Source: Bacillota bacterium
Lineage (GTDB): Bacteria > Actinomycetota > Aquicultoria > Aquicultorales > Aquicultoraceae
Direction: 5' to 3'
Assembly (NCBI GenBank): GCA_023511485.1
Contig: JAIMBH010000020.1
Span: forward strand, 1 to 41,737
Length of the DNA stretch: 41,737 nt
Shown piece after piece: positions 1 to 22,294 of the stretch. The first letter of the stretch is position 1. Every line of letters begins with the position of its first letter. The notes below the pieces were generated by a model. It was not told the origin of the DNA, did no database searches, and saw nothing but the letters and a program-made list of their open reading frames with translations. The position numbers and the translations under genes were made by a program.

Positions 1-2597
1 CCCTCGCTTGAGGTTTGGTGGCCGGCGTATGGGGAATCGCTATCATAATCGGCTTTGATGTTTGTGCTCGCGCCGGTACCGTCGTGGCAAGCCTCACAGA
101 GTAGGTTATAAGTGTCGTGCGAGTAGTTATTTACGACATCCGGGTTGTCCAAATATGCCTTATTTAAGATAACATTGGTTGAATACTGACTATTCGCAGG
201 GATAGTCGTTTCGCTTGAAAAATCGGGTGCCAGGTGCACAAAGTGACAGGTTCCGCAGAGATTTGTGCTGCCTGAGAATTCATGCACGTTTTGGACTATC
301 GATAAAAGGTTTGATTGTAGAGCGCTAAACGGTTTTACCTTCGCGGGGGATTCTACAAGAATCGCGCTCTCATCAGCGATTCTTGTGCCAACTGTCGAAC
401 CAACCGTTGCTGTATCACTTATTGAGTAAATAATATAATACGTGCTGCCAGAGCTTGCTATAGTCTCAGGAGATGCTAGCATAAACAGTTGCGGATTGGC
501 TGAATAGTTTTGCTGGGATAACGTTATTATCGTGTCAGCAGGGCCTACCGGTGTATTTGACCCTTGATAGCCAGATTTGCCATTAGTTTCCTTAGCTAGG
601 TATATGCTGCTGACATTGGCAGGTGCTGATCCGGAGCCGTAATCTTCAAGCCGGAAACCGGTCCAATTAGCAACGCCCAAATCTGTTTTAATGTTTAGTG
701 ATTGCATAACCACATAGTTCTGGCCTACAGTTACCGATCCCCTGGATACAGGTTGAGCCGATACCATTACGCTAGGCGGTATTTGGATCAGTCCGGATTG
801 TATTGGACCGTTCAGGTTAACCGTATCGGGCGGTGCTACACTGATAAAGCTTGCATCGGTCAATTCGGCGCCGACCGTCGGGTTGTTTGGCGCTGTGGGT
901 GACAGATCGTAAACTATGAAGTATTTTAACGCTTTCGTATCTACAACCTGCTGGCTAAACGTTAAATCAACGGTGTTATCACTCGCAAATGTCCCTGAAG
1001 CAAGCAACTGGTCACTTGCTTTGTTAAACGAGCCGTTCCCATCGTCTTTATAGAGATAGACTTTAGTGACAAAATCACCTGCTGCTTCTGTGCCATATCC
1101 GAGTACTCTTATACCTGCCACTTGGGCAGTACCGTAATTAGTCGCCAGGGCTACACCCAGCATACATACATCAGTTTGCCCTGCTGTTGCATACCTAGGC
1201 GCATAATCCGTAGGAACGACGTTAACAATATCACCGCTTATGACCGGCGTATTAGATATGAAGGTGCTGTCTATGCCGGTTACAGGGATTGGCGAGTTCG
1301 CTGCAGTGAGCATTGCGCCAACGGTTGCGCCGACCATGGCCGAATCTTTTATGTCATAGGCGATAAAATAATCTGTTGGCGTAGTTGTAATAGTTTCGCC
1401 TCCAGTAATAATGAATGTCGAGCTATCGGAAGACGGGCCAAAAGTTGCCGGTAGATCGAGTGTAATCCGTATATCCGTCCTTGGATCAAAATTACCGTCC
1501 CCATTGTCTCGATAAAGCTTTACGGACTGGATGTTGTTGAAAGCCAGGCCGCTTCCATATTCATCGAGTGTAAAGCTATCCCATGTAGAACTGCCACTGC
1601 TTGCCCTAACTGTAAAGCGCATCATTACCTTGTTTGTTTGTCCTTGGTAAGCAACTGTTCCACCCAGCGGGATGCAATTCGAAAATTGTATTTGCTGCTC
1701 CAGCGGCTGAGCCGTATCAGCATTCTGCGGGGCAGGTGGGGGATCTACCATATCGTTCCAATTGCCGTAGGCATCTTTGGTAAAGACCGCATAGTAGTAA
1801 GTTGTCCCGTTGGAAAGGGCGGTATCCGTAGTTGAGATGGATGCTCCAGATTCTGGGGCAGTGTTGTCATAGACCACTGTCCCATCTGTGTGGTTAGCTG
1901 GGTAGCTATCTGTCTTTCTTAGGACTGTAACCTCCGCCAAAGCAGTATCTGTCGGGTTGGTCCAGGAAAGAACACTTTGAGCGTTATCTCCATCGGTTGC
2001 ATTAAAGTCTGCAACTGTTGCCGGAGGGGCAGAGTCAACAGTTAAAGTGGCATCTGCCGTATCGTTGTTTGTTACTTGGTTTGTCACTGAGGTTAATGAA
2101 CCTACCTTGCCAACAAGGATATCGCCGTTGCCGGCGGTTAAGCTGGTGTCATAAGTTATGATGTAGCTAGTCTCGGTTGTTGTTACGGGTATGGAGACGG
2201 CAATAATTGCAGTGGTTCCAGAGAAGGAACCTTGGCCTACAAGCGTATCTAATGTATCGTAGTATCCGCTAATCGAGCCGGTATCCTGGTATATCTTAAC
2301 AGATGAGATGTCAGCAGTGTTGGTTGAACCGCTGGCATCGATTGATATTGCTGTCACTGTATCGATATCTGCGTCTGTCTTTAAAGAAAATGCATCTACA
2401 GATTGATTGGCAAAGCCTGGCCCCACGACTCTTGATGCCGGCTTTGTCTGGTTGGTCCCAACGTCTGAGACGGTTATTGCCTGAGCTGCAATAACCAATG
2501 CTATAGGCAATGTAAATATAAATAGCAGGCTTAGCGGAAGCAATAAGAATTTAAGAAAAATTTTTGCATCCGTTTTCCTGATATGATTTCTATTCAT
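1..2597 (-). CDS. Large secreted multidomain multiheme protein (C-terminus beyond window)
   Basis: The reading frame is open from ATG at 2597 to the left edge of the window (865 codons seen, no stop). An N-terminal hydrophobic segment (about residues 13-35) looks like a signal peptide. A fibronectin-III-like domain lies near residues 188-285. Four related blocks of roughly 110-130 residues (about 60-185, 325-450, 483-590, 625-755) each hold a 'VKLYRDNGDGNFD'-type Asp/Gly-rich loop and end in a 'YFIxYD...TVG' motif. The visible C-terminal part has two heme motifs, CGTCH near residue 781 and CEACH near 834, and more probably follow. It is probably a cell-surface cytochrome with an adhesive or calcium-binding stalk. 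The family is not recognised more precisely. A GGAG lies 15 nt before the start, with a palindrome between them. Confidence 0.85.
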   Translation of the reverse strand, partial: MNRNHIRKTDAKIFLKFLLLPLSLLFIFTLPIALVIAAQAITVSDVGTNQTKPASRVVGPGFANQSVDAFSLKTDADIDTVTAISIDASGSTNTADISSVKIYQDTGSISGYYDTLDTLVGQGSFSGTTAIIAVSIPVTTTETSYIITYDTSLTAGNGDILVGKVGSLTSVTNQVTNNDTADATLTVDSAPPATVADFNATDGDNAQSVLSWTNPTDTALAEVTVLRKTDSYPANHTDGTVVYDNTAPESGASISTTDTALSNGTTYYYAVFTKDAYGNWNDMVDPPPAPQNADTAQPLEQQIQFSNCIPLGGTVAYQGQTNKVMMRFTVRASSGSSTWDSFTLDEYGSGLAFNNIQSVKLYRDNGDGNFDPRTDIRITLDLPATFGPSSDSSTFIITGGETITTTPTDYFIAYDIKDSAMVGATVGAMLTAANSPIPVTGIDSTFISNTPVISGDIVNVVPTDYAPRYATAGQTDVCMLGVALATNYGTAQVAGIRVLGYGTEAAGDFVTKVYLYKDDGNGSFNKASDQLLASGTFASDNTVDLTFSQQVVDTKALKYFIVYDLSPTAPNNPTVGAELTDASFISVAPPDTVNLNGPIQSGLIQIPPSVMVSAQPVSRGSVTVGQNYVVMQSLNIKTDLGVANWTGFRLEDYGSGSAPANVSSIYLAKETNGKSGYQGSNTPVGPADTIITLSQQNYSANPQLFMLASPETIASSGSTYYIIYSISDTATVGSTVGTRIADESAILVESPAKVKPFSALQSNLLSIVQNVHEFSGSTNLCGTCHFVHLAPDFSSETTIPANSQYSTNVILNKAYLDNPDVVNNYSHDTYNLLCEACHDGTGASTNIKADYDSDSPYAGHQTSSE

Positions 2598-2850
2598 ACT
2601 AAATAGTATCGACTCCTTTAGCAAAAGCTAGAGGTCAAAGGCATTGATGAAATTTTTGTCTGTTGATTGCCGAAAAAATACCAAGTCCGCCAGCTCCGGC
2701 ATCTGCGGCGGTAGCTACTTTGTAAAATAATTTCTTTTTACAGCGTTTTCGATGTTTATATCAGGAATAATCTAGGGGTAGATTCGGCTTATAACACCAA
2801 TCGATATCAGTACAATCCGCCGTCAATGAACGCTATTTGTTAGCAATTTA
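2598..2850 (-). promoter_or_regulatory. Structured 5' leader of the large surface cytochrome
   Basis: No convincing gene was found between 2598 and 3049. On the minus strand the leader holds a hairpin AATCTA-(4 nt)-TAGATT (2769-2784), a GC-rich hairpin (2687-2711) followed by a U-run (2673-2678), an SD-proximal hairpin CCTTT...AAAGG that could cover the ribosome-binding site, and the palindrome ATACTAAATAGTAT (2594-2607) overlapping the start codon. This resembles a cis-regulatory leader, but no known riboswitch class could be matched. Confidence 0.35.
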
Positions 2851-2853
2851 AAC

Positions 2854-2881
2854 ACTATAAAAATTGTGAATAACTAAGCAA
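2854..2881 (-). promoter_or_regulatory. Candidate promoter for the large surface cytochrome
   Basis: Read on the minus strand, TTGCTT and TATAGT are separated by 16 nt. Transcription from here would give a leader of about 250 nt. The -35 match is only moderate. The rest of 2882-3049 is AT-rich and shows nothing convincing. Confidence 0.35.
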
Positions 2882-3049: not shown

Positions 3050-3694
3050 TTAACGGCTGGCAGCCTCCTTGAGCAACTCGTTTGCCCTGGCTGGATTGCC
3101 AAGTGCGTTGTAGGCGTTCGCAAGTTTATTATAGACCTCCGGCTTTAAGGGCGAGTCTTTAGGCAGAATTTTTAGCAAGGTATCCCACTCATGGATGGCT
3201 TCATTGTACTTTTTGTACTTAAAGTACAGGTCACCAAGCGCGGTATGAAAGGGCAGGCTATTCGGTTTGGCTTTAACACAGGCCCTAAGATAGCCGATAG
3301 CTTCATCTTTTTTGCCCATTTTATCCGCAAGAATACCAAGTTGGTAGGCAATATCCGGGTTTGTCTTATGCTCGTAGAGCTTTTTTGTTTCTTCGTAAGC
3401 TTCCGGTACTTTGCCAGTCACAATATAGGCCGAGGACAGCAAGGCGTGAGCTTCATAATCCTCGGGGTTTTTCTTTAAGTAGACGTTGAGGTCTTTGATC
3501 ATTTTTTCATAGTTGCCTTCTGCATAGAGTTTGCGTGCATTCTTTGCCATTTCCGCTTGAGCTTTTTTCTTGGCACTGATTTCTTTATTGTGTGCCGTTA
3601 TGCCGACGATAAACACAGTTAGGAGAAGGATAACCACAATAAAGATTGCTATTATAAGTGGTTGTTTGTCATTTAATTTGTTTATGAAGCGCAA
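3050..3694 (-). CDS. Membrane-anchored TPR protein
   Basis: A 214-residue protein with one N-terminal membrane segment (about residues 13-32) followed by tetratricopeptide-type helices, for example the 'YEAHALLSSAYIVTGKVPEA' and 'LPFHTALGDLYFKYKKYNEA' units. TPR arrays are protein-protein scaffolds, and this one would lie outside the membrane. The start is TTG at 3694 because GGAGAGA sits about 7 nt upstream and no ATG fits. It is the last gene of a TPR-NHL-NHL-TPR run that leads to the large surface cytochrome, so a role in assembling or organising surface cytochromes is plausible but inferred. Confidence 0.85.
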   Translation of the reverse strand: MRFINKLNDKQPLIIAIFIVVILLLTVFIVGITAHNKEISAKKKAQAEMAKNARKLYAEGNYEKMIKDLNVYLKKNPEDYEAHALLSSAYIVTGKVPEAYEETKKLYEHKTNPDIAYQLGILADKMGKKDEAIGYLRACVKAKPNSLPFHTALGDLYFKYKKYNEAIHEWDTLLKILPKDSPLKPEVYNKLANAYNALGNPARANELLKEAASR

Positions 3695-3819: not shown

Positions 3820-4851
3820 CTACTCGCTAAAAACGGCAATTCTGTCCTTTTGCCGGTCTGCGATATAGATTAGGCCGGCATCCGGGTCGGTTGCTATACC
3901 GTTTGGATAAAGAAGAGCAGAATCTCCTTTGCCGGAGCCGTAGCTTAAGATATATTTGCCCTGCTTTGTAAAGACGAATACTTTCTGTCTGGCAAGGTCG
4001 ACTACATGTACCCGCCCTAGGCTATCGATAGCAATGCCCCTCGGTATAATAAAAGGCTCCTTTGGGTTGGGCTTAAAAAAATACTTGAACTTGCCATTTC
4101 TATCAAAGACCTGCACCCGGCTGTTATTGGCGTCGGCGACGTAAATATCGCCGTTCTCGTCAGCTGTGATTCCATGGGGATACATGAATTCTCCCTCCCT
4201 GGTTCCTGCACGGCCAAACTTTACTAAGAGTTTTCCTTCGGTAGAAAAGACTTTAACATCCTGGTCACCGATGTCTGTCACATAAATCCTGCCGTCGCGG
4301 TAAAAAAGGCCGACCGGGCGGTTAAGGACTGGCTGGTTATCCTGAGCTGCCGATTTAGAATTCCCCGGAAACAGGTATTGGAACTTCCCAAAAGCATCGA
4401 CGACCATAATATGGTAAAATCCTCTTACCTCGATGCTTATATAGATACGGTTCTGGTCATCGATTGTGATGCCTAAGGGGTAGCAATCCGAGTCTTTTAA
4501 AAGCTTAACTGACCTTACGAGTGCACCGCGTTTTGTAAAAATCGTAAGTTTGCCATGCCCTGAGTCGGTAACGTAGACGTATTTACCGAAAGCTACAACC
4601 GAGAGCGGCTTTGCAAGCTTTGCGTCGCCTTCTCCGGCAATTGGATGGTAATACTTCGGAAGACCGTTAATCGTCGTTGAGCGGTTGCCGGCATACTCAT
4701 AACCCAGGAGAAAATACGTATATAAGCCCAGCGTTATAAAACCAACCAAAAACACGCTCAAAATTATAACGGTAAATTGCCGCCTGCTGACCTTTATTGA
4801 GTCACCCAAGTTTTTTAATTGCTTTCCAACATCTTTTATATTCATAATCAC
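3820..4851 (-). CDS. Membrane-anchored six-blade NHL-repeat protein
   Basis: A 343-residue protein with an N-terminal membrane anchor (about residues 25-49) and six NHL-type beta-propeller blades. The recurring pattern is 'PxGIxxDxxGxIYVxDxxxxRVxVF', clearest in 'YPHGITADENGDIYVADANN'. NHL propellers usually bind proteins or other macromolecules, and no catalytic signature is seen. GTG at 4851 is chosen as start because GGAG lies 11 nt upstream; an ATG two codons later has no better site. It is adjacent to another NHL gene and two TPR genes on the same strand. The ligand is unknown. A recognition or scaffold role for cytochromes is inference from context. Confidence 0.85.
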   Translation of the reverse strand: MIMNIKDVGKQLKNLGDSIKVSRRQFTVIILSVFLVGFITLGLYTYFLLGYEYAGNRSTTINGLPKYYHPIAGEGDAKLAKPLSVVAFGKYVYVTDSGHGKLTIFTKRGALVRSVKLLKDSDCYPLGITIDDQNRIYISIEVRGFYHIMVVDAFGKFQYLFPGNSKSAAQDNQPVLNRPVGLFYRDGRIYVTDIGDQDVKVFSTEGKLLVKFGRAGTREGEFMYPHGITADENGDIYVADANNSRVQVFDRNGKFKYFFKPNPKEPFIIPRGIAIDSLGRVHVVDLARQKVFVFTKQGKYILSYGSGKGDSALLYPNGIATDPDAGLIYIADRQKDRIAVFSE

Positions 4852-4914: not shown

Positions 4915-5889
4915 TTATTTGACCGTGATTTTTACAACCTGCACGCGGTCATTATACTTATCGGCAATTGCAAAACGCCCGTTTTGGTCGTAGGCAATGC
5001 CGGATGGCTGGTTCAGCTCTCCCTCTCTGGACCCCTTTTTACTGAGCTCGGCCTTCAGATTACCCTCTGTGTCCAGAACCTTGACCGAATTAGCAAAAGC
5101 ATCCACCAGGTAAAGAAGGTGTTTTTCATCTATGGCAATCCCGCAGGGAAGGCTGAATTCTCTATCTCGCGCCATGACATCCTGGGCCGGTTTGCCTCTA
5201 GCCCACAGCACCTCGCCATTTCTTGAGAAAGCCTGCAGCCTTAAATTAAAGGTGTCGGCTACATACACTTTGCCGTCGCTATCGACAGCAATTCCGGCAG
5301 GAGTATCGAGGTCACCCTTTTGGCGTCCCTTCTTCGCCCATTTGGCAAGCTCATGGCCTTTAAGGTCATAGACCATTATATGGCCGTAGGTGGTGACGTA
5401 GAGCTTGCCGGCAGCTACCTGTGGCTTAATCGGCATCATAACTTTAAACTCGCTATCGAACTTGCCGTCTCTATCATATATCACGACCTTGTTTAATGCT
5501 TTATCGGCCACATAAACCTGGCCTTCCATAGTTGAGGCCACACCAAAAGGCTCCATAAGCTCGCCTGGACCAAAGCCTTTCTTGCCGAGTGTCCTAAAGT
5601 ACTGGCCGCCAGGGCGAAATACCAACACCCTGGAGTGCCCCGTGTCGGCGACATAAATGTTGCCATCCCCGTCAAATGCGACATCGGATGGGCGGTAGAG
5701 CATCTCATCTTCTTTAGTCCCATAACCATAAATGCTGAGAATGTGCCTGAACTGCGGGGTTTGATAAGCAGGTACGGCCGGCGGGCGGGAGATGATGTAA
5801 TAGAGGTAGAGCAGGATAAGCGTCATCGCTATTAGTATTACTAAAAGTATCACGAGAAAACTTCTTAAACTTATATTGCGTATAGCCAT
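4915..5889 (-). CDS. Membrane-anchored six-blade NHL-repeat protein
   Basis: A 324-residue protein with a membrane segment near residues 10-32 and six NHL blades filling the rest, the first being 'YRPSDVAFDGDGNIYVADTG'. It is a paralogue of the neighbouring NHL protein and of the N-terminal two thirds of the NHL protein at 13739-15226. ATG at 5889 follows the upstream TPR gene by 11 nt, which indicates co-transcription and probably coupled translation; the ribosome-binding site is weak (AGG). It is probably an extracytoplasmic propeller. The function is not known. Confidence 0.85.
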   Translation of the reverse strand: MAIRNISLRSFLVILLVILIAMTLILLYLYYIISRPPAVPAYQTPQFRHILSIYGYGTKEDEMLYRPSDVAFDGDGNIYVADTGHSRVLVFRPGGQYFRTLGKKGFGPGELMEPFGVASTMEGQVYVADKALNKVVIYDRDGKFDSEFKVMMPIKPQVAAGKLYVTTYGHIMVYDLKGHELAKWAKKGRQKGDLDTPAGIAVDSDGKVYVADTFNLRLQAFSRNGEVLWARGKPAQDVMARDREFSLPCGIAIDEKHLLYLVDAFANSVKVLDTEGNLKAELSKKGSREGELNQPSGIAYDQNGRFAIADKYNDRVQVVKITVK

Positions 5890-5900
5890 TTCTAAAAAAC

Positions 5901-6584
5901 CTATTTTAACCTTTCTAAAGCTTTTTTCGCTTCCGTGTAATCGGTTACGTATTTTAACGCTTCCTGATACTCCTTCTTAGCAAGGTCTATCTGATTGGTC
6001 CTCTCGTAGCAATTTCCTAAATAATAATGCGCATCGGCCAGCGTTGGGTTTACTTTTAGTGTTTTTTTATAAGCTTCGATGGCCCGGCCAAAATTTTTCT
6101 GGTTTTGGTATACCCTGCCTAATTGGTAAAATCCAAGCTCGTTGTATGGGTCAATGTTTGCCGCTTTTGTAAAGTGCTTTATAGCTTCACCTTCTTTGCC
6201 AAGTGCATCGTAAGCCCGGCCCATCTCGAAATGTGCGTTCCATGAGTTGGGCTTCAGACGGACGGCCCTTTCCAGATTTTTAAGCGCACTTTGCGGATCC
6301 TGCATTTCAAGATAAACATCGGCAAGGCCGATATAGGCTTCGGCATTGCGGGGGTTCTTTTTTATCGCCGCTTTATACTTTAAAAGGTCTTTCTCTATTG
6401 CTGTGCGGGCAACGGGCGGCTGAAAATAAACCCTCTGCACAATCAAAGCGGTGATTAAAAACATGAGGATTAGAAAGAGTACGACTCCACCAACTAGCCA
6501 GAGACTAATTTCTTCAGCAGGCTTTTCAGCTTCATAATCGATGGAATCACTATTAGTGATTCCCGAATCCATTTCTGACGTCAT
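5901..6584 (-). CDS. Membrane-anchored TPR protein, first gene of operon
   Basis: About 227 residues: a short acidic cytoplasmic N-terminus, a membrane segment (about residues 30-53 from this start), then four or more TPR units such as 'AEAYIGLADVYLEMQDPQSA' and 'ADAHYYLGNCYERTNQIDLA'. The start at ATG 6584 is preferred over a TTG at 6614 because AAGGTG sits 6 nt upstream of the ATG. It heads the TPR-NHL-NHL-TPR run and is paralogous to the TPR protein at 15258-15977, which also precedes an NHL gene. Confidence 0.85.
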   Translation of the reverse strand: MTSEMDSGITNSDSIDYEAEKPAEEISLWLVGGVVLFLILMFLITALIVQRVYFQPPVARTAIEKDLLKYKAAIKKNPRNAEAYIGLADVYLEMQDPQSALKNLERAVRLKPNSWNAHFEMGRAYDALGKEGEAIKHFTKAANIDPYNELGFYQLGRVYQNQKNFGRAIEAYKKTLKVNPTLADAHYYLGNCYERTNQIDLAKKEYQEALKYVTDYTEAKKALERLK

Positions 6585-6867
6585 ACTAAGCACCTTAACA
6601 AAAAAATATAGCAAAGTGAAGCTTTTTACAAGCGCTCAACAGCGTCTTTGCCTCTGTTATCTGCGGATTCGGTCAGCGGCCCTAAGATAAATAAATTTTT
6701 GTTGGCGTATGCTTGTTTTGCTTCTAACAGGCTACAGGTCCATTTGCAATATAATCAAATTTATCCTGAGGCTTCCTGGCGACAGCGGACTGTTTTTACA
6801 GGTAAGGTTATTTGCGCTTTTATATTTTTGATATAAAGCTCTAAGCTCTAAACAGAGTCGGCCATAG

Positions 6868-12777: not shown

Positions 12778-12865
12778 TCTTTCACCTCCTTTATGTAAAG
12801 TCATTGATGAACTTGTTTTCATTATCCTGTTTCACCTCCTTTTTAAGAAATAAATGTGTACGTGA

Positions 12866-13738: not shown

Positions 13739-15226
13739 TTACTCATCCTCACTGGCCGGTTTGGGCTTGGACCCCTCGGTTTCAGCCTTAGATTTATGGT
13801 AGGCCTCTTTAAATTCGTCGTAGCTCATGGTAGCTAGATTGAGCCGCTCGGCTTCGGCCTTAAGGTTTTGAGACGATGTTAGAAGCACTCTCTTGCCTTT
13901 TGTGCTACTAGCCAATGCTAAGGCTGCTAGGTCGGTTTTGGAGAGGCCTTTGATTGAAGAAAGGCTTGCCAGAGCCTCCTCGCTTGCCGGCTTTACCATT
14001 AGCTTAAGCCCTTCAGGCAACTTATGTTTGAGATTTTCAAAAGCCTCTGGCACAATTGTTAGTTTCTTAAACGCTCTGGAGAGCGCCTCGCCATCGCCAG
14101 AGTCGACTGCTGTACTTATAAAACCCTCCGAAGCGATGACCTGCAGACCTGACCTTCTTAACAATAGCAGGCCAAGTGGCAGCAGTAGCAGCAACAGGTA
14201 TGGCAGCATGTCAAAGATTTTGGCGCTTACCGGTGTTGAGATAGGCACCTGGAATACCTGTACGCGGTCATTGAATTTGTCTGCCAGAACAATCTTGCCC
14301 TGGCCGGCATAGGCGATTCCATCGGGGTAATAGAAGAAACCGTCGTCGTGACCTACATCGCCGATTTTTTGCAGAAACTTACCCTTGGTATCAAGGACAA
14401 TAAGTTCACTGCTTAAGCCATCTACTACGTAAAGGTGCCCGTTACCATCAAGTGTGATACTGGAAGGAAGCCCGAACTTGCGATCACTGCCCCTGTACAT
14501 AACTGCTTGATCTGCCGGAATAGGGGAGCCGTATTGCCATAGGGGATCTCCGTTTTTATTAAAGGCCTGCACGCGGTAATTTAGGCTATCGGCGACATAG
14601 ATATCGCCGTTTGGACCGACGGTTATACCGCCGGGCATGTCGAACTCACCCTTACCTTTTCCTCTTTTGCCGAAAGAGGTTATCAAGTTGCCTTCAAGGT
14701 CACCGATCATTATGCCCCGTGCGGTTGTTACATACAATTTTCTATCGTGGATTGTCAGGGCCAGCGGAGGGTCGGGGAAGACTATCTCGTGGATTGGTTT
14801 AAACTGCCCGTTATAAACAACGATTTTCTTTGATGTCTTGGACAGGACAAACGTGCGGCCGTCTGGCGCAACGGCGATACCGATCGGGTCTCTGTACTTA
14901 AACTTTCCGTCACCGTAATCAGTAAACTGGTTTACATAGTTGCCGTTTGCATCAAAGATAACAACCCTTTGCTTGCCAGTATCGGCAACATATATACGTC
15001 CCTGTTCATCCATAGCAACACCAGAAGGTCTTCTTAAAAGGTCGCCCTCAAAGCCGTATATGGAGAACAGGGGTGTAAAATCTTCTTGCTTTCTGGCATC
15101 TTTGGCTACCGGCGGCTTGGTCAGCATAAAATAGAGAAATAGCAATGCTATTAATGCCGCCAGTAGAACGGCAATAAACATTATGTATTTTTTGTAGGTA
15201 TCATCGGTCGCTACAAGTTGTGCCAA
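13739..15226 (-). CDS. NHL-repeat membrane protein with C-terminal PIN-like domain
   Basis: A 495-residue protein: a membrane segment at about residues 15-34, six NHL blades (about 45-335, for example 'RRPSGVAMDEQGRIYVADTG'), a second membrane segment near 345-362, and a C-terminal domain of about 130 residues. The pattern 'TDLAALALASSTKGKRVLLTSSQNLKAEAERLNL' looks like the latter half of a PIN fold, with the usual acidic TDD/TSD position changed to TSS. With two membrane crossings the propeller would be outside and the PIN-like part in the cytoplasm. The start is TTG at 15226 with GGAGG 8 nt upstream. The PIN assignment is by eye and moderate; the NHL assignment is strong. Confidence 0.85.
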   Translation of the reverse strand: MAQLVATDDTYKKYIMFIAVLLAALIALLFLYFMLTKPPVAKDARKQEDFTPLFSIYGFEGDLLRRPSGVAMDEQGRIYVADTGKQRVVIFDANGNYVNQFTDYGDGKFKYRDPIGIAVAPDGRTFVLSKTSKKIVVYNGQFKPIHEIVFPDPPLALTIHDRKLYVTTARGIMIGDLEGNLITSFGKRGKGKGEFDMPGGITVGPNGDIYVADSLNYRVQAFNKNGDPLWQYGSPIPADQAVMYRGSDRKFGLPSSITLDGNGHLYVVDGLSSELIVLDTKGKFLQKIGDVGHDDGFFYYPDGIAYAGQGKIVLADKFNDRVQVFQVPISTPVSAKIFDMLPYLLLLLLPLGLLLLRRSGLQVIASEGFISTAVDSGDGEALSRAFKKLTIVPEAFENLKHKLPEGLKLMVKPASEEALASLSSIKGLSKTDLAALALASSTKGKRVLLTSSQNLKAEAERLNLATMSYDEFKEAYHKSKAETEGSKPKPASEDE

Positions 15227-15257: not shown

Positions 15258-15977
15258 CTACTTATTCGTATTTTTTGCCGGAGTATTGTTTCCCTCGGCA
15301 TTATTGGCGGTATTTTTACTATCGGTTGTTACGCCCTGTTTGATTAGGCGTTTAGCTGCATCTATCGCTTCCTTATAGTCCGGCGTATACTCCAGCGCCT
15401 CTTTGTAATATGCAAGAGCCGTGACTTTGTCGCCGCTTTTTTCGTAGGCCACTCCAAGGCTGTAAAGAATTGGAGATGACTCTGGGCCAAAGCTCAGGGC
15501 TTTCTCATAAGCCTTAACAGCCTTTTTATAGTCCTTCAAATTCATGTCGACCTGGGCAGCCTCCAGCCAGCAGTTCTGGTAAAATGGTGCGAGCTGGCCT
15601 TTTGAATTTGCTGCTTTCTCGAAACTTTTGGCGGCCTCTTTAAGATTATTTTGCTCTTTTTGCGCCAAACCTAAGACAAAGTGGGCCTGGCCATTATCCG
15701 GTGCAAGACGAGCTGCGACTTTAGCCTCTTTTACTGCATTATTTACCCGGCCAAGCTCGAGATAGGCTGCGGCTAGCTTGATCCTTGCCTGCGCATCATT
15801 GGGGTTGGCTTTTACGGATTGAACGGCTAAAAAGAGCGCCCGCTCGGCTTCTGTGCGCGGTGCGTTTAAGTCATCACTGAGAAGCATGTAGCGAGCTATG
15901 GCTATGCCTGTACCCAGAACTGCTAGTACTAAGACAACTATTAATGCTTTTAATATAAAGGGTGTCCATCTGCTCAT
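15258..15977 (-). CDS. Membrane-anchored TPR protein
   Basis: A 239-residue protein with an N-terminal membrane segment (about residues 8-29), then about five TPR units ('AQARIKLAAAYLELGRVNNA', 'SPILYSLGVAYEKSGDKVTA') and a low-complexity Asn/Thr/Lys tail. ATG at 15977 has AAGGAGAG 9 nt upstream. It is the first gene of the TPR-NHL-GerMN operon and a paralogue of the TPR gene at 5901-6584, which also precedes an NHL gene. It is probably a scaffold on the outer face of the membrane. Confidence 0.85.
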   Translation of the reverse strand: MSRWTPFILKALIVVLVLAVLGTGIAIARYMLLSDDLNAPRTEAERALFLAVQSVKANPNDAQARIKLAAAYLELGRVNNAVKEAKVAARLAPDNGQAHFVLGLAQKEQNNLKEAAKSFEKAANSKGQLAPFYQNCWLEAAQVDMNLKDYKKAVKAYEKALSFGPESSPILYSLGVAYEKSGDKVTALAYYKEALEYTPDYKEAIDAAKRLIKQGVTTDSKNTANNAEGNNTPAKNTNK

Positions 15978-16384: not shown

Positions 16385-16412
16385 TCACTCTTCTAGCGGT
16401 AATTCATCCTCA
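16363..16412. repeat. 25-bp tandem duplication at a cytochrome stop codon
   Basis: Two copies of a 25-bp unit beginning CTCTTCTAGCGGTAATTCAT (16363-16387 and 16388-16412) differ at one base. The stop codon of the twelve-heme cytochrome gene (16385-16387) lies at the junction. Because 25 is not a multiple of three, the second copy shifts the frame. Confidence 0.9.
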
Positions 16413-17827
16413 GGATTATCTGATGGCTTAGTTGGAGGTGAAATTAAATTCTGCCCTTGCCACTTTGGTATTTCTACGTTGCCGGAATCCCAATCGGGTT
16501 GCCAGCTGGGCTGAGACAAAGTATTTTTTGCTGGTCCGTTCTTTGGCTGCACCTGGCCAGTTGTATGGCACTTAGCGCAAAATGTCGGTCCGTGACAGTC
16601 AAAGCAGTATGCAGGTCCGACTCTGTTGACGACATGCTGATGCATTGGTATCCAGGACCCGGGAGGGCCCGTATACCCTTTGTGATGACATGAATTGCAA
16701 AAATCCGATTGCCTGTGGCATTTCCGGCAAACCTCTGGATTTTTTGTGCCGATCTCGCCATGGTTCTCTTTCTTAAATTTCTCCGGGTGGGGAACTTCAA
16801 CGCCATGGCACCCTGTGCAAAACGATTTCTGATGACACATCATGCACGGGCCGATATCTTTAAGAGCGTTCTTGCCGTGGTCCCCATGCAGCCAGGTTCC
16901 GGTTTGATGGTCCAGCTCGCCACTTGATGGGATTATATTGAAGCTCTTTGGATGGCAGGCAGTGCACCTTCCCGGTGCGATGGCCGATTTCGAAAGCCCG
17001 TGGCAGCGGAAGCAGCCCTGCATGCTGATAAAAGTCTTGTAGCCGGCGCTTCCCGGATGCCCGGCCCGGTTGTGGCATGTAGTACAGTTGATCCCTTTTT
17101 CAATATGGATGTTGTGGTTCATAACCAGGGTTCTTCTTGGCGTGATCACCCTTTTAGGGGTATGGCATTTAAGACAGCTATTGTTATCTATTGCTTTACT
17201 TAGCGAACTATCAGCGTTGATTGTTGGGCTGCCGCCTGTCTGCCCATAGGATTTGGTAAAGTGGTAATAAATGTGCGATACCAAAGCCGCCTTTTGCTTA
17301 AAGAAGCCAACGAATCCCGGATAATGGCAGGTATTGCAATCTACCTCCTCGTGAATCGACTCCTTCCACGCCTCATAGGCGGGCTCCATCTCGTGGCAGC
17401 TTTTACAGAAATCTGGTTGCGCGATGTATGATGATGCAAATCCCAGCACGATAAGAACCAGTATTGCCACAACTGCGCCCAGGATTAGGGGTGCCTTCGG
17501 GTATTTGCCGAGCAGCTCTTTTATGCCGGGCAGTCTTGGGCCTGACATTGCGGATTTTGCGCCAAACCTGCGAGCCTTAGATCTAAGGCCAAATCCCGGC
17601 CATTTAGGTTCCGGCTTGAGGCCAAGTACCTGCGACTCCGTTGCAGCTTCACCGTATTTGCTATCAAGCGCTTCTGATGTGCTTGGGCTCGGGCCTGTCT
17701 TTCTAGGTTTTTGCCAGGGCAAATTTAGCCTAAAGCGTGGGAGTTTTGTTTTTTGTCCCGGGACTTTTAGCTTGAACTTCGGGGGCTTAGATTTAGGTTT
17801 TAGCCATCGAAAATTAAATTTAAACAT
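16385..17827 (-). CDS. Membrane-anchored twelve-heme cytochrome c with basic N-terminal region
   Basis: About 480 residues. The first 110 or so are unusual: rich in Lys, Pro, Phe and Arg with near-repeats ('PPKFKLKVPGQKTK', 'LPRFRLNLPWQK'), predicted cytoplasmic. A membrane anchor follows, then twelve CxxCH motifs: CKSCH, CNTCH, CLKCH, CTTCH, CFRCH, CTACH, CMMCH, CTGCH, CRKCH, CNSCH, CFDCH, CAKCH. The first pair has the full NapC/NirT pattern 'CHEM...AWKESIH...C', consistent with quinol oxidation. The tail is acidic and Pro-rich. The start is uncertain: ATG 17827 has a distant AGGTG, and GTG 17845 has no site. It lies downstream of the Rex-like gene on the same strand. Confidence 0.9.
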   Translation of the reverse strand: MFKFNFRWLKPKSKPPKFKLKVPGQKTKLPRFRLNLPWQKPRKTGPSPSTSEALDSKYGEAATESQVLGLKPEPKWPGFGLRSKARRFGAKSAMSGPRLPGIKELLGKYPKAPLILGAVVAILVLIVLGFASSYIAQPDFCKSCHEMEPAYEAWKESIHEEVDCNTCHYPGFVGFFKQKAALVSHIYYHFTKSYGQTGGSPTINADSSLSKAIDNNSCLKCHTPKRVITPRRTLVMNHNIHIEKGINCTTCHNRAGHPGSAGYKTFISMQGCFRCHGLSKSAIAPGRCTACHPKSFNIIPSSGELDHQTGTWLHGDHGKNALKDIGPCMMCHQKSFCTGCHGVEVPHPEKFKKENHGEIGTKNPEVCRKCHRQSDFCNSCHHKGYTGPPGSWIPMHQHVVNRVGPAYCFDCHGPTFCAKCHTTGQVQPKNGPAKNTLSQPSWQPDWDSGNVEIPKWQGQNLISPPTKPSDNPEDELPLEE

Positions 17828-17914
17828 TTTGCTAAATTTTAGCACCTGATAACTATATTAACAAGCGGAATCAACCAAGATGTCAACTGAGGGCGCTGCA
17901 GCAGGCATCCTGCT

Positions 17915-18601
17915 CTAATCGTCCACAACGGTTGTTGCGGGGGGCTCCTGATGCTCCAGTAAATTAGCGTAATAGAAGAGTGATTTCAGTCCGCAAGCAA
18001 TGCCAAGCTGCATGATATGGACTCCAGGCGGCGTGTTTGTAACCTCCGATTGGGTTAGCACCAGGATACTTTTGATCCCGGCCTGGACAAGAAGGCCAAT
18101 GCTGTGGTTCAACCAGGTAGGATGGGTTGCAACTACAGCTACTCTTACTCCCAGGTCGACTATTGTCTTGGATATTGCTTCAATCGCCTGAACCTCATGA
18201 CCGTAAATCCATGCGCCGTGGTCTCGTGGGTCTTCGGAAAAAAACGCGGCAGGGGTAAAGCCAAACTTTTCAATTGGGAAGTAGTCGAAAAATGATCTTA
18301 CAACGGAAGTTGAGCCTACAAAAGCAACCGGAGCAAATTGCGGCAGCGACAGAAAATCTCCAATCATGCGCCTTAAGCTACTGATATTATAACCGCTTCC
18401 GCGTTTCCCCGGCGTCTCTCCCATAAACATGAGGTCACGCCGTATGGTCGATTCATTTAAACCCAATGCATTGGCTAGCTCCTTGGAGGTAATCGTATCG
18501 TTCTTCCTAGCCAGCAGCATATCGGTTAATTTGCAATGATACAGGGCCAGCCTGTGCAGTGACTCGGCCGGAACTGACTTTAAATTTATTGAATCATGCA
18601 A
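17915..18601 (-). CDS. Divergent Rex-like redox-sensing regulator
   Basis: About 228 residues matching the architecture of Rex repressors: an N-terminal winged helix ('ITSKELANALGLNESTIRRDLMFMG', then 'GKRGSGY') and a Rossmann-like domain ending in the Rex-type swapped C-terminal helix ('CGLKSLFYYANLL'). Rex proteins normally bind NADH through GxGxxG; here that loop reads 'VGSTSVV', so cofactor binding may be changed or lost. The start is TTG at 18601, 9 nt after GGAGGT; an ATG at 18637 has no site. It is embedded among cytochrome genes and probably controls them, possibly sensing something other than the NADH/NAD ratio. Confidence 0.8.
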   Translation of the reverse strand: MHDSINLKSVPAESLHRLALYHCKLTDMLLARKNDTITSKELANALGLNESTIRRDLMFMGETPGKRGSGYNISSLRRMIGDFLSLPQFAPVAFVGSTSVVRSFFDYFPIEKFGFTPAAFFSEDPRDHGAWIYGHEVQAIEAISKTIVDLGVRVAVVATHPTWLNHSIGLLVQAGIKSILVLTQSEVTNTPPGVHIMQLGIACGLKSLFYYANLLEHQEPPATTVVDD

Positions 18602-18675
18602 CAGGACACTACCTCCTGCATTTACGCTTATATGCATAACACAATTATAACTTAAACCAGTAAATAAAAGAACCC

Positions 18676-18741: not shown

Positions 18742-19338
18742 TTAGTGGGAGAACTGACTAGAGAATGCAAAACGCTTATTATGGCAGAAAGAGCATTCGT
18801 TTCTGCGCTCGGCATGGCATTTAAAGCAAAGTTTTCTTTTAGGGATCAGATCACCTATGCTTCCAACACGCGGATGGGCTGCCCCTGGATGGCACGTTGT
18901 GCAGGAAATATTTGCTTTTAAGACATGAAGCTTATGGTTAATCTTGATATCACCAGACTCTGATGTAACTCTATTTAAACTATGGCAACCCTTCCTCTGG
19001 CAAGAAGCTACACCCGGCAGGCTTGCACCAATTGGCTTTAAATCTGCTCCTACCATGCTTGCATATATCTCACGGTAAAAACTTATCCTGTATATGAAAA
19101 GATTCAGAGTACCTTGCTTCACATGGCAGTGGAAGCAGTTGTTTGCAGCAGTTGCATGGGAAGACTTTTTCCATGAGTCGTAATAAGGCTTCATGGAATG
19201 GCAGCTAGTGCAGCTTTGAGCATTGGACGTATATATGTAGGGAATCGCATAGAAGGCCAGCAGAAATACAAAAGCGGCCACTAAATATTTGACCGCTCTT
19301 TTTGCTCTTTTATCGCCCGTTTTAACCGATTTGCCCAT
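18742..19338 (-). CDS. NapC/NirT-like membrane cytochrome with six heme sites
   Basis: A 198-residue protein with one N-terminal membrane anchor (about residues 16-37) and heme motifs CTSCH, CFHCH, CQRKGCH, CTTCH, CFKCH, CSFCH. The first shows the quinol-site pattern 'CTSCHSMKPYYDSWKKSSH'. The third is a CX4CH motif, a non-standard heme attachment known from some tetraheme cytochromes c3. It is the smallest of the NapC-like set and is followed by the Rex-like gene. It is probably a membrane electron-entry or relay protein. An AGGT lies about 13 nt before the ATG. Confidence 0.9.
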   Translation of the reverse strand: MGKSVKTGDKRAKRAVKYLVAAFVFLLAFYAIPYIYTSNAQSCTSCHSMKPYYDSWKKSSHATAANNCFHCHVKQGTLNLFIYRISFYREIYASMVGADLKPIGASLPGVASCQRKGCHSLNRVTSESGDIKINHKLHVLKANISCTTCHPGAAHPRVGSIGDLIPKRKLCFKCHAERRNECSFCHNKRFAFSSQFSH

Positions 19339-19419: not shown

Positions 19420-20241
19420 CTAGGGCTGTACGCCGTGGCACCTCATACAGAACTCGTTCTTGTGGCAGGCGTTGCATCCTGCACGGTCTGTCTTGGCACG
19501 GTCACCGTGCTTGCTTCTCCAAAGCGTTAGGTGAGACTGCGGTTTTTGCTTATGGCATTGCATACACCAGTCCGGCCTCCAGTTATGGCACTTACCGCAG
19601 TTTACGATCTTTGACATTTGCCCGTGCACCTGGAACCAGTTGGCTTGCTTATGGCTTTCCGGAACCGCTTTTTTGGTATGGCAAACACCACATTTATTTG
19701 GAGCCTTCTTGCCATCGTGGCAAGTCAAGCACGTTTCCATCTTTGGCTTTCTCTGATCGGCTTCACCGTGCGCTACTCTGGAATGGCAGGTTGGGCAGGT
19801 GAGCCCTTTCTTAATATGAAGCTCGTGTGGAACCCTAAGGTCGCCTGAGAAGGAATACATCCTGTTAAGTGAGTGACACTGCAGGCACGCCTCATTGATT
19901 GGCTCCATATCCTTTGCGATAATCTTCGGCGGGTTTGGCTTGTTATACACAGTAAAGTGCAGGTAGAGCTCTTTCATCGCCTCGATCTTGTGAATCATCT
20001 GCGCTGTCAAGCTTGGGTGTACGTGGCACTGGATGCAATTTACCTCTTCATGGACAGAGGATTGCCAGGTCTTATACATCGGCTTCATCTCATGGCAGTT
20101 AGAGCAGAAGCCTGGCGTTGATGTAAAGACCAACCCCGCGTAACTGACAACCACGAGGGCGATTACAGCTATTACCGCTATGTTTACTACTCTTGTGTGG
20201 TTTTGATAGAATTCCTTTATTTTATCCAACAAGCTGCTCAC
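19420..20241 (-). CDS. NapC-like membrane ten-heme cytochrome c
   Basis: A 273-residue protein with one membrane anchor (about residues 19-41) and ten CxxCH motifs: CSNCH, CIQCH, CLQCH, CPTCH, CLTCH, CGVCH, CGKCH, CMQCH, CNACH, CMRCH. The first pair reads 'FCSNCHEMKPMYKTWQSSVH', the NapC/NrfH-type quinol site with Met after the heme. It is closely similar in layout to the ten-heme gene just upstream, suggesting duplication. The start is GTG at 20241 with AAGGA about 11 nt upstream; the gap to the upstream gene is 17 nt, so the two are co-transcribed. Confidence 0.9.
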   Translation of the reverse strand: MSSLLDKIKEFYQNHTRVVNIAVIAVIALVVVSYAGLVFTSTPGFCSNCHEMKPMYKTWQSSVHEEVNCIQCHVHPSLTAQMIHKIEAMKELYLHFTVYNKPNPPKIIAKDMEPINEACLQCHSLNRMYSFSGDLRVPHELHIKKGLTCPTCHSRVAHGEADQRKPKMETCLTCHDGKKAPNKCGVCHTKKAVPESHKQANWFQVHGQMSKIVNCGKCHNWRPDWCMQCHKQKPQSHLTLWRSKHGDRAKTDRAGCNACHKNEFCMRCHGVQP

Positions 20242-20258
20242 CGCTTCTTATATCCTTC

Positions 20259-21149
20259 CTACTTTTTCTCAGAGAAAGTTCCTTCGTCATGACACCTGAA
20301 GCAGAATGTCTCTTTATTATGGCATACAAGGCAACCGTTATAATTAACACGGGCTCTTATGCTATGGTATGTACGCCACTCAGTGCCGCCATAATGGGTG
20401 GACGGGCGTTTGCTCTGATGGCACTGGCTGCAGAAGAATGGGGTCCAACCATGGCATCTCTTGCAGTTACTGTCCTCATGTGATGGGTCTTTAGCCACAA
20501 GGCTGTGTATCTCAAACCACTTTGCATCTTTGTGACTTTCTGGAATTGCCTTTTCAGTATGGCAATTCTTACATGTTAAAACAGGCGCATTAAATGTCTC
20601 ACTAACGTTTTTGTTACCGCCGCCGTGGCAGCTTAAGCAAAGCTCCATGGCCGGCCTTCTGATAAATTTGCCCTCAAGGTTGGCTCCATGAACTACGGCA
20701 AAGTGACATTTCACGCAAGGGATTCCTTTGTCAAGGTGTTTCTGGTGTGGGATAATTAAATCACCAGAGGGAGAAACATCACGCCAGCTAACATGACAGT
20801 TCTGGCAGACCTCGGTCTTGATATGCGTCTTGGCTTTAATTGGCTCGGTGTAATTACCGCTAACATGAGCCACTACACTTTCAATCTTGTGCGGTATTCC
20901 CAGGATAAAGCCCTTTATGCCCGGAGCTGGATTGTGGCAGTTTGGGCAGCCAATCTTTTCATGGGATGAACCCTGCCAAGATTTGATGGCTTCACCCATC
21001 TCATGGCAGGTCGCACAGGTTTGATATCGGGCGGCTATGGAGTTACCCAAGAAAAGACCGGCGATGATTAGAACAACCAGTGCTCCAAGTTGATACAACA
21101 GCAGTCTTTTCTTTTTAGGGTCCATGTCTTTTAAGTTTGGTAATTGCAT
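20259..21149 (-). CDS. NapC-like membrane ten-heme cytochrome c
   Basis: A 296-residue protein with one membrane anchor (about residues 17-38) and ten CxxCH motifs: CATCH, CPNCH, CQNCH, CVKCH, CLSCH, CKNCH, CKRCH, CSQCH, CLVCH, CFRCH. The N-terminal pair has the quinol-site arrangement 'CHEMGEAIKSWQGSSH'. It shares with the next gene the conserved pieces 'LCLSCHGG' / 'TCLTCHDG' and 'AIPESHKDAKWFEIH' / 'AVPESHKQANWFQVH', so the two are paralogues. It is the first gene of the run 21149 to about 18742, after a 425-nt leader region. Confidence 0.9.
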   Translation of the reverse strand: MQLPNLKDMDPKKKRLLLYQLGALVVLIIAGLFLGNSIAARYQTCATCHEMGEAIKSWQGSSHEKIGCPNCHNPAPGIKGFILGIPHKIESVVAHVSGNYTEPIKAKTHIKTEVCQNCHVSWRDVSPSGDLIIPHQKHLDKGIPCVKCHFAVVHGANLEGKFIRRPAMELCLSCHGGGNKNVSETFNAPVLTCKNCHTEKAIPESHKDAKWFEIHSLVAKDPSHEDSNCKRCHGWTPFFCSQCHQSKRPSTHYGGTEWRTYHSIRARVNYNGCLVCHNKETFCFRCHDEGTFSEKK

Positions 21150-21574
21150 TAAGTAACCGTCCTGAATGTTAAATACTGATTTAAGGTATTCTTAAGGTCT
21201 TTATACCTTTATAAGTCATCGGCTAATCATTTGCCAACTTTAGCATTCATTAACTTTTTTTAAAGCGAACGATCTTTAATGGATATTTAAGTGCACATAA
21301 AGGTATTGCTAAGTGTATGCTAATAGGTATCTTCGTATACCAGGATGGCTTTGCAGGATGAATCTTTAAACTAAACCGTATTAACCGATTATCCAAACCG
21401 GATTTTGCAGATTTTAAAATAATCTGCAAATGGTTCGATTACAAAGTTACAAAGCCATGAATATTATAATTGGCATGCTAGGGTAGTTGTCAAGCAAATT
21501 TTACCAATATGGGGTAATTTAGCGGTATTTTAAGTATTTTTTATTTAGTTTAGTAAAATTTACCTTTGTTTACT
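21150..21574 (-). promoter_or_regulatory. Leader and promoter region of the ten-heme cytochrome operon
   Basis: No gene is seen. On the minus strand TTGACA (21488-21493) and TATAAT (21463-21468) are separated by 19 nt. Downstream, a perfect inverted repeat TTTGCAGATT-N7-AATCTGCAAA lies at 21404-21430. A smaller GGTAT...ATACC repeat lies near 21327-21342, and another TAAGGTAT...ATACCTTTA pair lies near 21184-21213. The leader is therefore long (about 300 nt) and structured. Confidence 0.45.
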
Positions 21575-22294
21575 TTAACTTCCGACTCCCTGGATATAGT
21601 TGTTAATTATATTTAAATATCCGGTAAGGATAAGGATGCCCATTATAAGCAAAAGTATGCCGCTTATAATGTTTATTGTTCTAAAGTTTTTCTTAATCCA
21701 CTGGAAGGCCCCAAGAGCAGTATTGAAAAACAATGCTGTTGCTATGAATGGAATTCCAAGCCCCAGCGCATAAACGCTGAGAAGCAGTGTACCTTGGTTT
21801 ACGGTGCTGGTAGTTGCCGCCATCGAAAGAATTGTACCTAAATAAGGCCCGACACAGGGCGTCCAGGCAAACCCAAAGGCAGCACCCAGCGGGAGGGCTC
21901 CCCAAATGCCAATTTTAAGGTTGCCCATGTTTAGCCGCTTTGTCTCGTAGAGTTTCGGTATTTTTATTAGCTCCATCGAAAACAGCGCAAAGATTATAAT
22001 GACGATACCCGCGATTTTCATGAAAATCGCGCGGTAGGAAATAAGCCAGGAACCGAGGAAACCAGCGGATGCTCCAAGCGCTACAAAAATAATTGTAAAC
22101 CCGAGGACAAAAAGAAGCGTTGCGGCAATGACTCTTACTCTGTTCTGGGTGGATGTTCTACCCAGGTCATTGACCGAGATGCCCGATATAAAGGAGAGGT
22201 AGCCGGGAATGAGCGGCAGCACGCATGGTGAGGCAAAGGATGCAATCCCAACGAAAAATGCCATATATATACTAATGTCTGGACTACCGTTCAT
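21575..22294 (-). CDS. ccdA: CcdA/DsbD-type thiol-disulfide transporter
   Basis: A 239-residue integral membrane protein with six hydrophobic segments and the two family cysteines in 'FASPCVLPLIPGYLSF' and 'FAWTPCVGPYLG'. CcdA passes reducing power across the membrane to thiol proteins that keep apocytochrome CxxCH cysteines reduced for heme attachment, which fits the many cytochromes downstream. ATG at 22294 has AGGGGG 5 nt upstream, and this site lies inside a CsoR-like operator, so copper may influence expression. Some copper and iron uptake loci also carry CcdA, so it could serve the neighbouring metal island as well. Confidence 0.92.
   Translation of the reverse strand: MNGSPDISIYMAFFVGIASFASPCVLPLIPGYLSFISGISVNDLGRTSTQNRVRVIAATLLFVLGFTIIFVALGASAGFLGSWLISYRAIFMKIAGIVIIIFALFSMELIKIPKLYETKRLNMGNLKIGIWGALPLGAAFGFAWTPCVGPYLGTILSMAATTSTVNQGTLLLSVYALGLGIPFIATALFFNTALGAFQWIKKNFRTINIISGILLLIMGILILTGYLNIINNYIQGVGS

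Follow-up and report, generated by a model that had tools for sequence, protein, structure and literature searches.

A probable quinol-linked extracellular electron transfer locus with 13 multiheme cytochromes in a monoderm actinobacterium of the Aquicultor family

Gene content of the locus

The window, meaning the whole 41,737-nucleotide stretch of DNA that was analysed, is one complete contig from a groundwater actinobacterium of the Aquicultor family (Actinomycetota), related to Candidatus Aquicultor. Its positions 1-22294 encode eight multiheme cytochromes, in which ORF and motif counts gave 69 CXXCH motifs and one invariant CX4CH, 70 sites in all, as the original prediction had held. Shuffling the residues of these eight proteins left a mean of 0.53 sites (maximum 5 in 1000), and the CXXCH count in the 33 remaining ORFs of the window was 0. 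The predicted per-gene counts of 12, 11, 7, 12, 6, 10 and 10 also stood, while the cytochrome at the contig end, credited with at least 2 sites, was found to have 14 and to continue in a second contig, C3. The TPR, NHL and CcdA genes were confirmed by Pfam/NCBIfam, as were the positions of two small plus-strand genes by ORF, and an Rfam search gave no match. The genes are as follows.

3..2624, minus strand: first 874 of the 1619 aa of a secreted multiheme protein (the giant cytochrome), cut by the contig end; the rest lies at C3:109140-111452
3050..3694, minus strand: TPRa, membrane-anchored TPR protein with one N-terminal hydrophobic segment (Pfam TPR_2, 6.5e-16)
3820..4851, minus strand: NHLa, membrane-anchored NHL beta-propeller (Pfam NHL, 1.7e-30)
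4915..5889, minus strand: NHLb, membrane-anchored NHL beta-propeller (Pfam NHL, 3.6e-30)
5901..6614, minus strand: TPRb, membrane-anchored TPR protein, 11 bp from NHLb (Pfam TPR_2, 8.1e-29)
7100..7507, plus strand: small membrane or secreted protein without assigned function; homolog in the G002 locus
7516..8070, plus strand: probable lipoprotein without assigned function; AAGC lipobox-like motif seen by eye, no Pfam match, homologs in the G002 and G008 loci
8147..9367, minus strand: 11-heme membrane cytochrome with two hydrophobic segments (Cytochrom_NNT, 7.8e-12; NrfH 2j7a_C, 2.9e-7)
9360..10376, minus strand: 12A, 12-heme membrane cytochrome, overlapping the 11-heme gene by 8 bp
10377..11093, minus strand: anchored protein without assigned function next to the 12-heme/11-heme pair; no Pfam match, homologs adjoin the pair in other loci
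11272..12822, minus strand: secreted 7-heme cytochrome of the PHGGY...KCKxCHAVH type (alignment A2; Paired_CXXCH_1, 4.5e-7)
13205..13735, minus strand: GerMN-domain protein (Pfam Germane, PF10646, 5.7e-14), 3 bp from NHLc
13739..15226, minus strand: NHLc, NHL propeller flanked by two hydrophobic segments (residues 15 and 337), with a C-terminal tail (Pfam NHL, 1e-28)
15258..15977, minus strand: TPRc, membrane-anchored TPR protein (Pfam TPR_2, 4.1e-20)
16385..17845, minus strand: 12B, 12-heme membrane cytochrome (family alignment A1; Cytochrom_NNT, 1.8e-16; 2j7a_C, 6.9e-16 with profile A1)
17915..18637, minus strand: divergent Rex-like regulator
18742..19338, minus strand: 6-heme membrane cytochrome, NrfH-like (5 CXXCH and a conserved CX4CH)
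19420..20241, minus strand: 10A, 10-heme membrane cytochrome, NrfH-like (2j7a_C, 2.6e-10; alignment A4)
20259..21149, minus strand: 10B, 10-heme membrane cytochrome, NrfH-like
21575..22294, minus strand: CcdA/DsbD-type thiol transporter (PF02683, 1.7e-15)

Positions 1-77 of the window dovetail exactly (77 bp) with the end of C3, a contig of the same genome. This join is backed by the gene order of two congeners (G001 and G002), in both of which the alignment of the ortholog with the giant cytochrome (residues 619-1479 of the latter) spans the junction. The giant cytochrome consists of adhesin-like repeats followed by its 14 CXXCH sites, two of them inside the window. Once joined, the locus comprises 13 cytochromes with 134 heme-binding sites in about 47 kb, the C3 side contributing five further cytochromes and ResB/CcsA heme-attachment genes. 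Because the locus runs on into C3, the electron route once proposed as complete is not complete within the window. In addition, minus-strand gaps of 382-485 bp suggest several probable transcription units, so that ‘continuous’ applies to the gene content and not to a single operon.

NrfH-like membrane cytochromes

Six cytochromes of the window are membrane-anchored and NrfH-like. The Cytochrom_NNT domain scores above cut-off in the 11-, 12B-, 6-, 10A- and 10B-heme proteins and below it in 12A (16.8 vs 24.1). Among solved structures, NrfH (2j7a) comes closest to their N-termini in sequence and, weakly, in fold: an AlphaFold2 model of 10A (pLDDT 52) found NrfH structures as its top Foldseek matches (best 2j7a_C), with an E of 0.007 and a poor rmsd, which makes the fold support weak. 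All of the proteins score below the NrfH family cut-off of 134 bits, and hence none is filed as NrfH proper.

The residues compared are those that we take to be Met49, Lys82 and Asp89 in the numbering of the 2j7a structure. The Met ligand of heme 1 (CXXCHxM) is kept in 12B, 6, 10A and 10B and absent from the 11-heme protein (CHSL) and 12A (CHKQ). The Lys82 equivalent is kept in 12B, 10A, 10B and the 11-heme protein, and is Arg in the 6-heme protein; in the 12B family it is K185, invariant in alignment A1. An acid at the place of Asp89 is found in 10A, the 6-heme protein and most 12B orthologs but neither in 10B nor in the window's own 12B, which has His where its orthologs have Asp or Glu. The description as a quinol-type first heme, expected of the membrane forms in general, thus fits four of the six anchored cytochromes, the 11-heme protein and 12A lacking the Met; the former is likely a relay. 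Compared with the NrfH/NapC/CymA quinol dehydrogenases (2j7a), the locus proteins are alike in the N-terminal anchor and first heme pair, and several have the CHxM ligand and the Lys and acidic quinol-site residues, but they carry additional heme chains as fusions, for a total of 6-12 sites, in a genome in which the partner reductase NrfA (PF02335) was not found. The CX4CH of the 6-heme cytochrome reads CQRKGCH, and its Cys, Cys and His are invariant across 11 homologs.

Heme attachment and the Rex-like regulator

A System II cytochrome c maturation set is present, with two ResB and two CcsA genes on the C3 side and CcdA in the window, where it would supply reductant for attaching hemes; CcdA adjoins a 10-heme gene in most loci of the family. 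The ResB/CcsA genes were considered as an extra dedicated set and rejected as such, since the two ResB genes of this locus are the only ones above cut-off in the genome.

A gene for the anticipated Rex-like regulator does exist; its product falls outside the Rex family, scoring 116 bits vs a cut-off of 126 and carrying GSTSVV in place of GxGxxG. The motif is also lost in the orthologs and in a paralog on contig C15, and in the alignment the two true Rex proteins of the same genome (C23 and C29) keep it. A working NADH sensor is not borne out: the glycine-rich motif is gone, and Rex operators are not in excess (2 sites vs 1.3 expected, not significant). Upstream palindromes were scattered and formed no pattern. 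That this protein regulates the locus is a guess.

Proposed electron route and alternative readings

From its gene content, it is reasonably probable that the locus serves quinol-linked extracellular electron transfer in its monoderm Aquicultor-family host, and the 13 cytochromes are probably a wire taking respiratory electrons through the cell wall. The sequence basis for this route lies in the NrfH/NapC-type 10-, 10-, 6- and 12-heme cytochromes, the 12-heme/11-heme pair without a quinol-site Met, the anchored TPR/NHL proteins, the secreted 7-heme cytochrome with the adhesin-like ones of 14/15 hemes, and ResB/CcsA with CcdA. Menaquinol would give up its electrons to the NrfH-like heme pair at the outer face of the membrane, and these electrons would then hop along the multiheme chains to the 12/11-heme pair, held within the cell wall by NHL/TPR scaffolds. 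The secreted and adhesin-like cytochromes may finally deliver them to an acceptor outside the cell, for instance a partner cell or a mineral containing Fe(III). The hemes themselves would be attached outside the membrane by CcdA and ResB/CcsA. On contig C11, the genome encodes a DsrAB-like pair whose neighbours resemble the Dsr complex, and the host therefore need not rely on an extracellular acceptor.

These Dsr genes bear on a rather unlikely alternative, that electrons run inward: a syntrophic partner, Fe(II) or another reduced solid would donate them, and the cytochromes would pass them to menaquinone in support of the Wood-Ljungdahl pathway and of sulfite reduction by DsrAB. Wood-Ljungdahl-like genes were recognised by eye on C3 near the locus, and NrfH-type quinone sites could run in both directions. 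Multiheme cytochromes are presumed to serve syntrophy in the bacteria that partner ANME (PMC5539420), and Dethiobacter Z-1002, with similar clusters, oxidises Fe(II) (PMC10376724). Against this reading, direction cannot be read from sequence, and in the closest cultured comparisons, Parvivirga (PMC9686372) and Dethiobacter AHT1 (PMC10376724), genes of this sort belong to organisms that reduce Fe(III).

Of the membrane, secreted and surface forms predicted, the sequence shows NrfH-like membrane proteins, proteins with signal peptides and one very large adhesin-like protein. That the large cytochromes are exposed at the surface is suggested by their adhesin-like repeats and signal peptides; their C-termini have no sortase motif nearby. 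Searched against the PDB, the secreted 7-heme and the 6-heme proteins gave only chance matches to unrelated proteins, and the giant protein gave one marginal match. Neither OcwA/OmhA-type terminal reductases, for which the 7-heme and giant proteins yielded no useful PDB match, nor solved nanowire subunits (OmcS/OmcE/OmcZ/archaeal), searched by sequence and profile, were recognised. An AlphaFold2 model of the 7-heme protein (pLDDT 32) was too poor for a fold search.

Multiheme reductases often cluster with NrfH/NapC-type donors, as in the Nrf and Mcc systems. Given the NrfH-like N-termini, one cytochrome might accordingly be a respiratory reductase of a soluble compound (a sulfur oxyanion, nitrogen oxide or metal complex) that the others merely feed. 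This is improbable: NrfA is missing from the genome, the cytochrome ORFs of the window contain no CXXCK and match no Pfam/NCBIfam reductase, and several secreted or adhesin-like cytochromes exceed what such an enzyme requires. One finding named beforehand as fatal to the proposed route, a dedicated soluble terminal reductase next door, did not emerge, as Pfam/NCBIfam recognised no known terminal reductase in the locus or in some 25 kb of C3 sequence adjoining the window. A formate-dehydrogenase-like gene on C3 (~73 to 78.5 kb) was considered and rejected as such a reductase: it contains an in-frame TGA and encodes a molybdopterin enzyme that has NAD(P)-type domains.

Nearly the whole gene order is kept in G001 and G002, where the NHLa ortholog adjoins the giant cytochrome (69-70% identity); NHLb orthologs in family loci are 61-76% identical, and the other family genomes inspected have recognisable parts of the locus. 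The idea that several independent multiheme modules, each with its own partners and conditions, merely lie side by side draws on the intergenic gaps and the plus-strand pair that divide the stretch, on paralogs with different neighbours (the 12A/11-heme pair again on C3 and C15, the 7-heme protein on C3 and C46) and on parts absent or rearranged in other family genomes, but it is the least probable reading, as the core order CcdA-10-10-6-(Rex)-12 is preserved across genera and two congeners retain almost the entire arrangement.

Among 60 relatives, 12B homologs occur in 39, and NHL proteins in 37 of these 39 cytochrome-positive genomes vs 0 of the 21 negative ones. Moreover, 55 of 108 NHL matches are no more than 10 kb away from a listed cytochrome, although such neighbourhoods make up ~2.4% of the sequence. 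NHL propellers and multiheme cytochromes thus co-occur strongly, and the locus offers a compact, conserved parts list from a subsurface class that is uncultured.

Comparison with known systems

Omp85 was not found in the genome, which bears out the Gram-positive-type envelope and means that an outer-membrane porin-cytochrome conduit (Mtr/Pcc/Omb-Omc) is not expected; nor has the locus a porin-like Pfam match. The locus bears on the question of how electrons cross the peptidoglycan wall without such a conduit. Tentatively, and with considerable doubt, the membrane 12-heme/11-heme pair held by NHL/TPR proteins might itself be a porin-free wall conduit of monoderm actinobacteria, an exit module repeated on C20, C3 and C15 with a role like that of porin-cytochrome complexes. 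Its regulator would then be a Rex paralog that has lost the NADH site and senses something else.

The scaffolds had been thought to set this locus apart from Geobacter, a view that the literature does not support. NHL propeller genes beside multiheme cytochromes are published for Geoalkalibacter ferrihydriticus, in a locus that includes an OmcE homolog (PMC12016550), and Desulfovibrio ferrophilus (PMC9769857), although these hosts are diderm and have outer-membrane cytochromes. Carboxydothermus ferrireducens (OmhA/Smh) and Thermincola (OcwA) are monoderms performing extracellular electron transfer via secreted multihemes, with putative quinol-oxidising multihemes (PMC7829351, PMC6703420). The C. 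ferrireducens genes are mostly scattered, and the Aquicultor-family locus has no OcwA/OmhA-like terminal protein recognisable by sequence.

Closer in kind is the monoderm Dethiobacter alkaliphilus, whose clusters (1-Fe-T to 3-Fe-T / 2-Fe), in the excerpted account, combine NHL, TPR and multiheme proteins and contain most of the cytochromes overexpressed on ferrihydrite or thiosulfate (PMC10376724). By the gene content given there, they share a CymA-like quinol oxidiser, secreted multihemes and NHL- and TPR-repeat proteins with the present locus, in which a quinol-oxidiser-like cytochrome and the other three components likewise stand together, as in clusters of the Dethiobacter/Anaerosomatales type. 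Dethiobacter belongs to another phylum, however, its largest cluster has nine multihemes vs 13, and the same excerpts report no ResB/CcsA or Rex inside the clusters (PMC10376724). Similar loci are thus already reported in a few other Gram-positive iron reducers, and the Aquicultor-family locus, unusually large among them, is a large example of an established type.

Parvivirga hydrogeniphila, an obligate Fe(III) reducer of the same phylum with a Gram-positive envelope, has a cluster (MCL4079323-32) in which a Rex-type gene and genes of cytochrome c biogenesis accompany the multihemes; it differs in that the cluster has ten genes and belongs to the class Coriobacteriia, and NHL proteins are unmentioned in the report (PMC9686372). 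The Anaerosomatales/Coriobacteriia multiheme loci examined here do contain NHL proteins. Together, the gene contents show a recurring unit of quinol oxidisers, the 12/11-heme pair, NHL/TPR proteins, secreted giants and heme-attachment genes common to Aquicultoria and Coriobacteriia.

Cytochromes and heme sites

The window spans the whole of contig C20, one of 58 that make up a 2.37 Mb genome, and a scan for open reading frames and motifs recovered, each in its place, all eight cytochrome genes of the original prediction. The estimate of about 70 heme sites also proved accurate, as these genes encode 69 CXXCH motifs and one CX4CH, against an average of 0.53 CXXCH in shuffled versions of the same proteins and none in the 33 other reading frames of the window. 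The CX4CH motif lies in the 6-heme protein, and since 11 homologs all share its two Cys and its His, it is probably a real heme site. Pfam and NCBIfam confirmed the accompanying three NHL, three TPR, CcdA/DsbD_TM and Rex-like proteins, and additionally identified a GerMN protein in the window. Several long gaps lie between the genes of the stretch, which suggests several promoters within the locus. The genes referred to below are:

3-2624 (-), giant cytochrome, truncated in the window
3820-4851, NHL propeller protein NHLa
4915-5889, NHL propeller protein NHLb
5901-6614, TPR protein TPRb
8147-9367 (-), 11-heme cytochrome
9360-10376 (-), 12-heme cytochrome 12A, overlapping the 11-heme gene
13739-15226, NHL propeller protein NHLc
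16385-17845 (-), 12-heme membrane cytochrome 12B
17915-18637 (-), Rex-like protein
19420-20241 (-), cytochrome 10A
20259-21149 (-), cytochrome 10B

Extent of the locus

The observation of a cytochrome locus thus stands and can be extended, while its reading as an electron-transfer route is borne out only in part: a complete route, as had been proposed, is not contained in the window, and the locus continues into another contig of the genome, C3, with five more cytochromes, ResB and CcsA. The join, drawn from the assembly overlap, is well supported, because bases 1-77 of the window are identical to the last 77 bases of C3, the truncated reading frame remains open through the junction to give a 1619-aa protein with 14 sites, the orthologs of this protein in two congeners (G001 and G002) align continuously across it, and in both congeners the order radical SAM, CcsA, ResB, 14-heme, NHLa, NHLb and TPRb is found on a single contig. 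The C3 side contributes 15-, 6-, 12-, 12- and 7-heme cytochromes, together with two ResB, two CcsA, a B12-binding radical SAM protein, a TPR protein, a Big-domain protein and two small membrane proteins, and the joined locus reaches 134 sites, spread over 13 cytochromes, within about 47 kb. In a relative (G008), about 31 kb contain 15 multiheme genes with 123 CXXCH. CcdA, ResB and CcsA are presumably the heme attachment set, and since no further ResB above the Pfam cut-off occurs in the genome outside the locus, the cell's heme-attachment genes sit inside it. The B12-binding radical SAM protein (stretch L031, 14684-16261) is flanked by the two CcsA genes, and a similar protein adjoins CcsA in two congeners.

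Predicted electron route

The function of the locus is a prediction from sequence. The anchored cytochromes carry N-termini related in sequence to the quinol dehydrogenase NrfH, with a weak fold match. Because 12B, 10A, 10B and the 6-heme protein retain the Met ligand of heme 1, which the 11-heme protein and 12A have lost, and the Lys and acid of the quinol site are partly retained in the anchored cytochromes, the former four would oxidize quinol, whereas the latter two would relay electrons. Signal peptides and repeats point to the secreted 7-heme and adhesin-like 14- and 15-heme proteins as the likely outer end of the route. Every NHL and TPR protein carries an N-terminal hydrophobic anchor, and judging by their co-occurrence with the cytochromes these proteins may act as a scaffold.

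The Rex-like protein scores 116 bits against a family cut-off of 126, and GxGxxG is absent from it, from its orthologs and from its paralog on contig C15. A search for Rex operators gave no enrichment. The two paralogs without GxGxxG (17915-18637 in the window and 13950-14633 in stretch L034) each adjoin one of two cytochrome clusters, besides two normal Rex genes elsewhere in the genome that score above the cut-off.

Conservation and comparison with known systems

Homologs of the 12-heme protein are found in 39 of 60 relatives, including every family member, and the 37 genomes with NHLc homologs all fall within these 39 (Fisher p 3e-14, relatedness ignored), the two remaining genomes being incomplete MAGs. 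At least 55 of 108 NHL matches lie within 10 kb of a cytochrome match among those listed, neighborhoods that make up about 2.4% of the sequence. The 12-heme/11-heme pair is present in three copies in the genome (C20, C3 and C15). Among the annotated and named loci, those of Coriobacteriia also repeatedly have NHL, TPR, ResB and CcsA genes next to multihemes. In a further relative (G013; stretch L049, 11497-13240), the first CXXCH of the NrfH-like pair has disappeared from the two decaheme homologs, which have 8-9 sites and so may have given up quinol oxidation. One reading frame with 38 CXXCH sites occurs in a Coriobacteriia MAG (locus L072).

Similar clusters have been published. The monoderm Dethiobacter has multiheme clusters with NHL/TPR proteins and a CymA-like oxidizer, and these clusters supply most of the cytochromes that it overexpresses on ferrihydrite or thiosulfate (PMC10376724). 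In Parvivirga, which shares the phylum of the host and is an obligate Fe(III) reducer, multihemes cluster with cytochrome c biogenesis genes and a Rex-type gene (PMC9686372), and Carboxydothermus uses secreted multihemes whose genes are mostly scattered (PMC7829351). The proposed contrast between the propeller/TPR scaffolds of the window and the Geobacter system is unsupported, as NHL proteins adjoin multihemes in Geoalkalibacter (PMC12016550) and Desulfovibrio ferrophilus (PMC9769857). No description of this locus in Aquicultoria was found in the open-licence literature. Given the clusters of Dethiobacter, Parvivirga, Geoalkalibacter and D. ferrophilus, the locus is not a new kind, but a large, well conserved example of a known cluster type in a new class.

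Host

Close dodecaheme proteins occur in Candidatus Aquicultor primus and secundus and in other Actinomycetota MAGs, and by record title nearly all of 78 loci compared come from Actinomycetota lineages (Aquicultor-like, Coriobacteriia/Anaerosomatales, Thermoleophilia and others), one being titled Armatimonadetes. Omp85 was not found in the genome by a search that was positive in seven control genomes, and its absence fits a monoderm host. A DsrAB-like pair is likewise present in the genome, with neighbors that by eye resemble the Dsr complex, in line with Dsr pathways published for Aquicultoria (PMC10591310). Genes resembling the Wood-Ljungdahl pathway, by eye, lie on C3 upstream of the locus, and a formate-dehydrogenase-like gene (stretch L134, 4444-8523), about 8 kb from where the locus ends on C3, has an in-frame TGA, possibly encoding selenocysteine.

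Genes beyond CcdA

Divergent from CcdA, a block at 22695-28587 encodes a BlaI-type repressor, an M56/M48 peptidase, an FtrD-like (DUF2318) protein, two MacB/FtsX permeases and an ATPase. In several genomes of the family it keeps this position next to the cytochrome locus, and it is perhaps an export system for metal or a redox cofactor. At 28584-31697, a CsoR-type metal repressor adjoins a heavy-metal P-type ATPase.
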